From: Vibrio tapetis subsp. tapetis
GTDB taxonomy: Bacteria > Pseudomonadota > Gammaproteobacteria > Enterobacterales > Vibrionaceae
Length of the DNA stretch: 64,000 nucleotides
Assembly (NCBI RefSeq): GCF_900233005.1
Contig: NZ_LT960612.1
Span: 806,001 to 870,000 of the forward strand
Direction of reading: 5' to 3'
The first letter of the stretch is position 1. Each line of letters starts with the position of its first letter. A program made the position numbers and the translations under genes. Of this stretch, positions 32,106-34,860 are shown piece after piece. The notes under the pieces were generated by a model. It had not been told where the DNA came from, did no database searches, and was given only the letters and a program-made list of their open reading frames with translations.

Positions 32106-33761
32106 TTATCGTTGACTGCCTGATCTAATATTTTTCTGGGTTGGCGTCATGTTAGGCAATAACGGATGACGGTAGATTCTGATGCAATCTCGTCCAGAGC
32201 GTTTTGCTTGGTACAAGGCATCATCGGCGTGTGCAATGACCTGAGTTATGCTCTCTTCAAAATCCCATTGAACGATGCCATAAGATGAAGTGACCGAAAA
32301 TGCTTGTTGGGTATCGGTGACAAATGAATGGGTATTGAGCGCAGATTGCAAACGCTGGGTAAATATCAACGCATCACTGAGCTCTGTGTTGGGCAGCATC
32401 ACAATGAATTCTTCACCGCCAAATCGCGCGCAAATGTCGCTCTCTCGTGCAATATTAGTAATTGTTCTCGCCACACCTTCAATGACCTTGTCGCCCGTGT
32501 TATGACCATACTGGTCATTGATGTTTTTAAATAGGTCAATATCTAACAGAACTAAGCAATATGTGCTGTGATTTCGCCTTGCTTGCTTCTCCTCGATTTC
32601 TATCAGTTGCGAAAACATACGGCGATTATAAAGTTGTGTAAGCGGGTCAATGGATGCTAAGTGACGTAACCGTTCTTCAACTTCTTCTCTGCGTTCAATT
32701 TCCAGCCTTAATTTACGCATTACAAACGTTAAAAAGCCGCACAGTGCAATCATAGTAAACAAAATGATCGACAGTAAAATTACACGATTATTCGCTGTTG
32801 TAATGGCACGTTGTTCTGCTCGATAGATAAAGTTGTTGAGGTGATAGCGAGTAGCAATAAGCCCTTCATCAATGAAAACATCAGCCATTTCATCAATTCT
32901 ATCGGCTTTGATATACCCAATTTCGACCAATTCTGAACGAACGAGATTGGAGATAGCAAGTGCTTCATAACGGAGTTCATCTAGGGTCTTATTCGATCCC
33001 CATTTGTTTCTAATGCTATGGATCATGCGTTCAGGGTTTGCGAGTGCATAACGCCAGCCCTTTAGTGTGGCACGTCGAAAATCATCAACGACCTGTGGTT
33101 TGCTGTCGATCAGCTTTTGACTCGTGAATAAAAAATCACTGTAAAAATCAATGCCGAGATTTTGAGGATTCAAAGTATGGTAATGAACACCCAATTTTTG
33201 GAGCAGAAAGGGCTCGTTTGGGAGGTAGCCGTTAAACGCATCGACATTACCGTTGATGAGATCTTGCAAAGCAAAAGAGCTTTGAATCACGTTAACATCA
33301 TCGAGGCCTACTTCGCCTTTAGATAACATGGATAAAAATTCAGGGCTGATACTGCCATCTAGGGTCATGATGGATTTGCCTTTCAAGTCGGCCGCGCTGT
33401 TAATGTTAGAAGAGGCTAAAGTTAATAGTACTGCTGGTGAGTTCTGAAAAATAGCCGACAGAGCGACGACGGGCTTACCCCTTAACCTTTCTAAGATCAG
33501 TTCACCATTTGCAACGCCAAAGTCCAACTCATTGTTAAGGACGAGATCAATCGTGTTGGTGTTAGGGTTGCCTTCATGGAGTGTGACCTTGAGGTTTTCT
33601 TGTTCGTAAAAGCCTTGATCTACCGCAGCATAGTAACCGGCAAACTGAAATTGATGCATCCATCGCAGGCCGACGGATATGTGCTCTTGTCCCAAAGCTG
33701 AGTAACTCATGCAACCCACGACAAAGGTGAGAATTTTGGTGGTTGTATGGTTTTTTTTCAT
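32106..33761 (-). CDS. Diguanylate cyclase with periplasmic NMT1/THI5-like sensor domain
   Basis: 551 residues from the ATG at 33761; an in-frame GTG 9 bp upstream is less likely. The signal peptide (GCMSYSALG) is followed by a substrate-binding-protein-like domain of the NMT1/THI5 type (about 25-245: VGLRWMHQFQFAGYYAAVDQ, NELDFGVANGELILERLRGK). Then come a membrane helix (LLSIILFTMIALCGFLTFV) and a cytoplasmic GGDEF domain starting IDPLTQLYNRRMFSQ, with active site RFGGEEF. The I-site RESD (RxxD) is present, so product inhibition is expected. The sensor probably detects a pyrimidine- or amine-like ligand, which is inference from family relatives that bind thiamine precursors. Confidence 0.9.
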   Translation of the reverse strand: MKKNHTTTKILTFVVGCMSYSALGQEHISVGLRWMHQFQFAGYYAAVDQGFYEQENLKVTLHEGNPNTNTIDLVLNNELDFGVANGELILERLRGKPVVALSAIFQNSPAVLLTLASSNINSAADLKGKSIMTLDGSISPEFLSMLSKGEVGLDDVNVIQSSFALQDLINGNVDAFNGYLPNEPFLLQKLGVHYHTLNPQNLGIDFYSDFLFTSQKLIDSKPQVVDDFRRATLKGWRYALANPERMIHSIRNKWGSNKTLDELRYEALAISNLVRSELVEIGYIKADRIDEMADVFIDEGLIATRYHLNNFIYRAEQRAITTANNRVILLSIILFTMIALCGFLTFVMRKLRLEIERREEVEERLRHLASIDPLTQLYNRRMFSQLIEIEEKQARRNHSTYCLVLLDIDLFKNINDQYGHNTGDKVIEGVARTITNIARESDICARFGGEEFIVMLPNTELSDALIFTQRLQSALNTHSFVTDTQQAFSVTSSYGIVQWDFEESITQVIAHADDALYQAKRSGRDCIRIYRHPLLPNMTPTQKNIRSGSQR

Positions 33762-34009
33762 CGGGAGCACGCTGATATTGTTTACGATAGGAAAAGGCTT
33801 GAACGGTTAGTCTAAAGATTCTTAGTTATATGCGCCATAGGTGATATGAAACAATGGTGATTTATCTTGTTTATGATTAATAAAATAAGATTAAATGCGA
33901 TATGAGTCACCTTTGGTGTGAGAGGTGATGAAGAAGAAGGGTAATCGATGGTTTGTTATGCATTGTTAAGGTGAATGGGTCAGTGCTGCTTCCTCATTTG
34001 CATTTTTCA

Positions 34010-34043
34010 TTGCATTTTGCGATTCGATAGTTGTATTTTGCAA
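34010..34043 (+). promoter_or_regulatory. Two LuxO-type activator sites upstream of qrr
   Basis: TTGCATTTTGCGA (34010-34022) and TTGTATTTTGCAA (34031-34043) each match the LuxO box TTGCA-N3-TGCAA with one mismatch. They lie 60-100 bp upstream of a perfect sigma-54 promoter, the proper place for an enhancer-binding protein. LuxO binding is inferred from the known control of Vibrio qrr genes. Confidence 0.8.
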
Positions 34044-34104
34044 ATAAAAAAATCATATATGCAGCATTTTTCACCGTTTGAGCGATAATTCGAGTAATTC
34101 AAAG

Positions 34105-34121
34105 TTGGCACGGTGATTGCT
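34105..34121 (+). promoter_or_regulatory. Sigma-54 promoter of qrr
   Basis: TTGGCACGGTGATTGCT matches the sigma-54 consensus (GG at -24: 34107-34108; GC at -12: 34119-34120) with exact spacing. The predicted transcription start is about 34131. Confidence 0.92.
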
Positions 34122-34130
34122 TTATACCTA

Positions 34131-34241
34131 GTGACCCTTTTTAAAGCCGAGGGTCACCTAGCCAACTGACGTTGTTAGTGAATCTATTTGTTCACAATAT
34201 ATATCGGCCAATCGCACTATTATTTGCGATTGGCTTTTTTT
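34131..34241 (+). ncRNA. qrr: Qrr quorum-regulatory small RNA
   Basis: About 110 nt from the sigma-54 start to the terminator. Stem-loop 1 is GTGACCCT...AGGGTCAC (34131-34138 with 34150-34157). It is followed by the conserved Qrr target-pairing core CTAGCCAACTGACGTTGTTA (from about 34158), a second stem region (TTAGTGAA...TTCACAA) and the terminator stem GCCAATCGCA/TGCGATTGGC (34207-34216, 34225-34234) with seven T. The full stem-loop 1 resembles Qrr2-4 rather than the shortened Qrr1. Qrr RNAs act with Hfq at low cell density on luxR/hapR-type, luxO, luxM and aphA mRNAs. Confidence 0.95.
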
Positions 34242-34377
34242 GCCGGCAACTCGTCCTCCTCTGGTAACTGACCAAAATCTCCATTCTCAATCAAAAATAC
34301 AATAAATACCTATTGCATGAACTGAAAGAAAAATGCTATTTAATTGTTAATTAAATGTTTATTTCTAGGCGGTTAAT

Positions 34378-34860
34378 GTGTCGACCTCTCCACCGGATCG
34401 AATTGATTATGAAATTTTGCGGCAGCTTAGGCTAAAAGGTCGGCTGACGATGGTTGAACTGGCAAAGTTGGTTAACTTAACCACCTCACCGTGTACTGAT
34501 AGGGTAAAGCGGCTCGAAAAATCGGGTTATATCTTGGGCTATCATGCAGAATTGTGCCCCGATAAGCTTAACTTAGAAGTTCAGGTGTTTATTCACATTC
34601 GTCTTGATCAGACGAGCTTCTCCATCTTTGACAAATTTGCTGCTGCCGTTGAGTTAATGCCAGAAATTGAAGAGTGTTATTCGCTGTCAGGTGATTTTGA
34701 TACCATGATCAAAGTGCGGGTGAAAGACATGAAAGCGTATCAGGCATTCATGTCGACAAAGTTGGGAACATTACCGGGTGTTATTCAAACTCGCAGTGAA
34801 GTGGTGATCGAGGAGCATAAATCTGGGTTTGGCATTAACCCTGACTTAGTTGGGCGCTGA
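34378..34860 (+). CDS. Lrp/AsnC-family transcriptional regulator
   Basis: 160 residues from GTG (AGGCGG lies just upstream). The N-terminal helix-turn-helix (about 8-60: DYEILRQLRLKGRLTMVELAKLVNLTTSPCTDRVKRLEKSGYI) is followed by a RAM ligand-binding domain (about 70-150: EVQVFIHIRLDQ, GDFDTMIKVRVKDMKAYQAFM). It probably senses an amino acid. It starts 137 bp after the Qrr terminator on the same strand and is not obviously linked to any metabolic operon here; the nearest transaminase gene is 4 kb away. Confidence 0.9.
   Translation: MSTSPPDRIDYEILRQLRLKGRLTMVELAKLVNLTTSPCTDRVKRLEKSGYILGYHAELCPDKLNLEVQVFIHIRLDQTSFSIFDKFAAAVELMPEIEECYSLSGDFDTMIKVRVKDMKAYQAFMSTKLGTLPGVIQTRSEVVIEEHKSGFGINPDLVGR

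Follow-up and report, generated by a model that had tools for sequence, protein, structure and literature searches.

A region I-containing Qrr small RNA gene with a sigma-54 promoter and two LuxO-type boxes beside an NMT1–GGDEF gene in Vibrio tapetis

The window, that is, the whole stretch of 64,000 nucleotides of Vibrio tapetis subsp. tapetis DNA that was analyzed, is part of contig C2 (1,855,153 bases). The genome comprises three contigs, and the third, of 82,266 bases, is identical (100%) over its first 12,000 bases to NC_010614.1, a V. tapetis plasmid of equal length; 82,266 bp is also the size given for plasmid pVT1 of strain CECT4600T (PMC3033894). In its middle part, a gene for a Qrr small RNA is located between two protein-coding genes, and the features of the locus are as follows (positions in the window).

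32106–33770, minus strand: gene of a 554-residue protein with NMT1 (PF09084) and GGDEF (PF00990) domains (Pfam), a predicted diguanylate cyclase, divergent from qrr
34010–34022, plus strand: LuxO-type box 1, TTGCATTTTGCGA, one mismatch to TTGCA-N3-TGCAA, 122 bases upstream of 34132
34031–34043, plus strand: LuxO-type box 2, TTGTATTTTGCAA, one mismatch to TTGCA-N3-TGCAA, 101 bases upstream of 34132
34105–34121, plus strand: sigma-54 −24/−12 promoter, TTGGCACGGTGATTGCT, no mismatches
34132–34243, plus strand: Qrr small RNA gene (RF00378), supported by cmscan and by its fold
34153–34162, plus strand: predicted complement to the aphA-like leader at −152 (Qrr nucleotides 22–31, 10 bp)
34166–34176, plus strand: predicted complement to the luxR leader at −25 (Qrr nucleotides 35–45, 11 bp with one G-U pair)
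34206–34241, plus strand: intrinsic terminator, a stem-loop (stem 34206–34235, 11 pairs) with a T-run
34378–34860, plus strand: gene of a 160-residue Lrp/AsnC-family regulator (PF01037; Pfam), downstream of qrr

The Rfam Qrr model (gathering score, 50 bits) was matched end to end (positions 1–108 of 108) by 34132–34243 with a cmscan score of 98.5 bits (E = 1.2e-17), and this was the sole Rfam match above threshold within the 64-kb window. A preliminary description, made from the letters alone, had proposed a complete Qrr locus here, and the covariance-model search confirmed it. The two neighbors had also been named correctly by their domains, as had the order of a conserved Qrr core followed by a terminator; the pairing core is identical to the Rfam consensus. 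The RNA folds at −35.6 kcal/mol (z = −5.44); its first stem-loop is closed and is followed by others and, at the end, by the terminator. Equal stability was reached in none of 200 shuffles. The first stem-loop (region I) is intact, with its stem at 34132–34156. Qrr1 is without pairing region I, and V. harveyi Qrr2–5 have it (PMC3262071). The earlier assignment to the "Qrr2–4 type" therefore stands insofar as the RNA is not a Qrr1, but an intact first stem cannot set Qrr5 apart because all of V. harveyi Qrr2–5 contain region I. Judged by its sequence, the locus is a genuine, complete, region I-containing (non-Qrr1) Qrr gene and a further member of a known family. The spacing to the promoter places the probable transcription start at 34131/34132.

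The promoter is the only match without mismatches to YTGGCACG-N4-TTGCW in the window, in agreement with the perfect −24/−12 element described before; matches with up to two mismatches numbered 6, against 6.56 expected. The two one-mismatch LuxO boxes of the preliminary description were recovered as well. Single LuxO boxes at one mismatch occur at chance frequency (5 in the window versus 5.35 expected), and the probability that at least two of the five fall inside one given 100-bp stretch is about 2.4e-5. In mononucleotide shuffles of the 200 bp upstream, two LuxO boxes were obtained in 0 of 20,000 and at least one box in 0.6%. Chance is an unlikely source of two boxes that are confined to 34 bases at the usual distance. 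The LuxR box TATTGATAAATTTATCAATAA was not found upstream at 6 or fewer mismatches of 21 in seven orthologous loci, a threshold beyond which a more degenerate site is possible. Because no LuxR-binding site was found upstream, LuxR feedback of the kind acting on V. harveyi qrr2–4 may be missing at the 34132 copy.

At least five Qrr matches over the cut-off were found in the genome (150 of 588 candidates were scored), and extra weak copies are possible. They are listed with their start positions in the contigs.

C1:1301424: 78.1 bits, shortened first stem, adjacent to the genes of LuxO and a LuxU-like Hpt protein
C2:681865: upstream member of a tandem pair, sigma-54 site present
C2:682260: downstream member of the tandem pair, perfect LuxO box at −109
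C2:840132: copy of the window, two LuxO boxes with one mismatch each
C2:890847 (about 8848 in locus L180): perfect LuxO box at −99, terminator stem differing in sequence

The highest-expressed qrr genes of V. harveyi, V. vulnificus, and V. fluvialis each have at least one perfect LuxO box, and mutation of LuxO sites lowered the activity of V. fluvialis qrr promoters (PMC11443567). By analogy, the copies at 682260 and 890847, the two among the other four whose promoters have a perfect box like the published top-expressed genes, are predicted to contribute more than the 34132 copy with its two imperfect boxes. The copy at C2:890847 also has a LuxR-like box at −165 with 5 of 21 mismatches; within 450 bp upstream on the plus strand, it was alone among the five copies in having such a box at 6 or fewer mismatches. 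In the genus, Qrr was present in 58 of 61 sampled genomes (own included), with 1 to 5 copies each among the best-scoring matches listed. Facing Qrr pairs about 5–8 kb apart were observed in several genomes of the genus, mostly on contig C2 (for example, G008 C2:1658459+ and 1665858−; G026 C2:540239+ and 545197−; also L186).

The tandem pair of V. tapetis occupies C2:681865–682371 (7866–8375 in L179), with its members 395 bp apart, and a second genome, G157, has a pair 399 bp apart (about 8920–9430 in L182). A pattern search for tandem qrr genes gave at least 1 of 227 genomes, its gap range being one base short of the known G157 pair. The pair is flanked by a VCA0040-like gene and a gene of 227–230 amino acids. 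It belongs to the same RNA family as the 34132 copy and shares the first stem-loop with it, but differs in that a LuxO box (perfect, at −109) lies upstream of the downstream member only. The upstream copy has no LuxO box at 2 or fewer mismatches in the 500 bp upstream, although its sigma-54 site is present. The sole perfect LuxO box of the tandem stretch lies between the two copies; it follows the start of the first by 286 bases and precedes the second by 109/113 bases. Similar 3′ stem-loops suggest that the pair arose by tandem duplication. Since the genetic organization of Vibrio Qrr genes is listed as distal in PMC4211561, the tandem arrangement seen here and in G157 is the more unusual observation, and it provides a handle on whether one LuxO box can serve two qrr promoters.

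The other components of the circuit were sought in the genome. LuxO was identified by NCBIfam NF041946 (852 bits versus a cut-off of 800), and the best hits for the LuxU-like Hpt protein and the LuxR/HapR protein scored below their NCBIfam cut-offs (123.8 versus 140 and 306 versus 350, respectively). For the aphA-like gene, no NCBIfam model scored above cut-off; we take its PadR-domain product to be AphA from its N terminus together with this domain. The Qrr RNA was compared with 54 5′ regions (luxR, aphA-like, luxO, the two neighbors, plus 49 further open reading frames of the window), and ungapped helices were ranked. The aphA-like leader ranked first (10 bp, −17.0 kcal/mol), with a stretch longer than most (310 nucleotides, against 210 for most, 190 for the Lrp-family gene, and 150 for luxO). 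The extended duplex of Qrr nucleotides 1–32 with this leader is predicted at −33.5 kcal/mol. The luxR leader ranked second with a predicted 11-bp helix (−14.2 kcal/mol). These ranks are only suggestive because window genes are close behind luxR (a frame at −13.7 kcal/mol in third place) and luxO was only 11th. Published pairing uses region II for luxR and regions I and II for aphA (PMC3262071), and the Qrr segments facing the two leaders agree with these regions. Because this complementarity fits the published regions, the RNA is best read as an ordinary region I-containing Qrr that would act in trans at low cell density.

Here, we propose the mode of action of the 34132 gene. At low cell density, phosphorylated LuxO would occupy the boxes at 34010–34043, as in V. 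harveyi, V. cholerae, V. anguillarum, and V. fluvialis, and would loop to sigma-54 RNA polymerase at 34105–34121, giving transcription from about 34132. The resulting RNA of roughly 110 nucleotides, ending at the terminator, would with Hfq pair with the luxR leader near the ribosome site and block it and would pair with the aphA leader and open it. As the net outcome, the cell would be held in the low-density mode. We infer LuxO binding, sigma-54 dependence, Hfq use, and the sign of regulation from the work on these four species; the family match, the promoter, the boxes, the terminator, the LuxO equivalog, the LuxU-like gene, and the complementarity to the luxR and aphA-like leaders come from the present analysis. 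We hold with high confidence that the gene is one of five V. tapetis qrr genes, is not a qrr1, and works as a LuxO/sigma-54-driven low-density regulator. The Qrr RNA, the promoter, and the predicted mode of action all belong to the known family.

The arrangement with the neighbors was examined in 227 genomes of the genus. Orthologs of the NMT1–GGDEF protein at E ≤ 1e-100 were found in seven of them, and in all seven a Qrr gene is divergent from it, 333–419 bp from the GGDEF start. The protein has a GGEEF motif with an RxxD motif five residues before it, which we take to be the inhibition site, and its NMT1 part resembles a periplasmic-binding-protein-like sensor of the predicted diguanylate cyclase. 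The Lrp-family gene adjoins Qrr in six of the seven carriers, with products 84.5–100% identical when the own genome is included (84.5–98% otherwise); the product of 34378–34860 remained under the NCBIfam Lrp equivalog cut-off (152 versus 233 bits). In G196, the seventh carrier, a response regulator takes the place of the Lrp-family gene and the NMT1–GGDEF/Qrr pair is kept; its ortholog retains GGEEF without the RxxD motif. More distant NMT1 proteins (E from 1e-100 to 1e-55) were found in 10 further genomes, nine as open frames of 1051–1094 residues and one of 287 residues, and none of these 10 loci had a Qrr core. Among 80 loci of GGDEF relatives, a Qrr core was present only in that of V. tapetis subsp. 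quintayensis (L036). The 607-bp intergenic region aligned over its full length only to its own genome and G157 (79%) among the matches listed, and much of the intergenic DNA outside the Qrr core, sigma-54 site, and LuxO box had diverged across the seven loci.

The copy could be vestigial or weak: its sequence is complete, but it might be transcribed very little or not at all and be redundant beside its four siblings. The imperfection of both LuxO boxes relative to the perfect box at two sibling promoters agrees with this, and so do two precedents: V. anguillarum qrr2, with two predicted boxes, was at least 20-fold below its siblings and undetectable on Northern blots (PMC3352281), and V. harveyi qrr5 is without cell-density control (PMC2680268). 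We nevertheless consider a nonfunctional copy unlikely. The Qrr core, the −24/−12 site (at −26, with 0–2 mismatches), and at least one LuxO box with no more than one mismatch are kept in all seven orthologous loci despite the intergenic divergence, which indicates selection on the locus.

The preliminary description also suggested that low cell density could affect the neighbors, and the sequence gives no support to such an effect in cis, although the neighborhood is conserved. If qrr and the divergent NMT1–GGDEF gene were regulated as a unit, the diguanylate cyclase would also be controlled, either by LuxO bound in the region between the two genes or by the RNA. The constant divergent pairing, kept even in G196 with a different gene on the other side, speaks for such a unit. 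The vca0939 gene of V. cholerae codes for a GGDEF protein. Its mRNA is named as Qrr-activated in PMC3262071. Qrr nucleotides 20–28 are complementary to the GGDEF region at −142 (9 bp, −13.3, sixth of 54), and shorter overlapping helices lie at −140/−141 in G157 (8 bp, −9.1, nucleotides 21–28) and in G150 and G148 (6 bp, −6.4, nucleotides 21–26). The complement thus weakens from 9 to 8 to 6 bp, however, and in G191, G149, and G196 the top two helices do not include it; it also lies far upstream and may fall outside the mRNA. Direct pairing with the GGDEF mRNA was rejected on this rank and on the weak or missing helices of the other carriers. Toward the GGDEF gene, no sigma-54 site with the invariant GG/GC was found at 3 or fewer mismatches in the seven loci; a two-mismatch match in G157 was rejected because it lacks the GG. 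With only a few carriers, four of which closely resemble one another, the conserved order may simply be inherited. On balance, a common regulatory unit appears improbable, somewhat more so than a weak copy. Read-through from qrr into the Lrp-family gene, which would link that gene to low cell density, is far less probable still. The two genes are on the same strand, 134 bp from the end of the Qrr match to the start codon, in an order kept in six of seven carriers, and a crude scan of 33650–34420 revealed no sigma-70-like promoter. Against this, the terminator stands between them, and pairing with the Lrp-family mRNA, ranked 53rd of 54, was rejected. For the best 30 Lrp matches, loci of about 3.46 kb were inspected; one was the locus of the window itself, and an adjacent Qrr was found at 0 of the 29 loci in other genomes. 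The Lrp ortholog is thus widespread without a Qrr beside it, Lrp as a general qrr neighbor was rejected, and the gene presumably has its own promoter elsewhere.

A bolder reading joins the two unusual arrangements: a lineage-restricted qrr would have been fixed beside NMT1–GGDEF, a diguanylate cyclase that would sense a periplasmic ligand, with LuxO between the two genes governing both, and in the same genomes the upstream tandem copy would take its activation from the box of its downstream neighbor. We regard this as improbable, more so than the regulatory unit itself. If true, a single promoter region would integrate cell density and a substrate signal to set c-di-GMP. The constant gene pairing of qrr with a diguanylate cyclase gives, in any case, a handle on functional versus merely inherited qrr neighborhoods.

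V. tapetis is a clam pathogen in which AI-2/LuxO signaling in biofilms has been inferred from RNA-seq (PMC6313714), and the Qrr locus fills in its quorum-sensing circuit. Among the papers listed for V. tapetis together with Qrr or quorum sensing, no title or abstract was about V. tapetis Qrr genes. Neither the 34132 locus nor a qrr/diguanylate cyclase gene pairing was described in the titles and abstract starts covered, a scope outside which most subscription journals lie.

Compared with known systems, the 34132 copy resembles V. harveyi Qrr2–5 and V. cholerae Qrr2–4 in its intact first stem-loop, terminator, sigma-54 promoter, and LuxO boxes about 100–120 bp upstream, as well as in its location on C2, the smaller of the two large contigs, which we take to be chromosome 2. 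Unlike these region I-containing members, both of its LuxO boxes are imperfect, no LuxR box was found upstream, and its setting, with NMT1–GGDEF beside Qrr in 7 of 227 genomes of the genus and the Lrp-family gene opposite in six, is distinct. V. anguillarum qrr1–4 likewise depend on sigma-54 and a LuxO-family activator with TTGCA-N3-TGCAA boxes, and qrr2 of that species has two predicted boxes, as the 34132 copy does, but V. anguillarum has four copies, compared with five in V. tapetis (PMC3352281).
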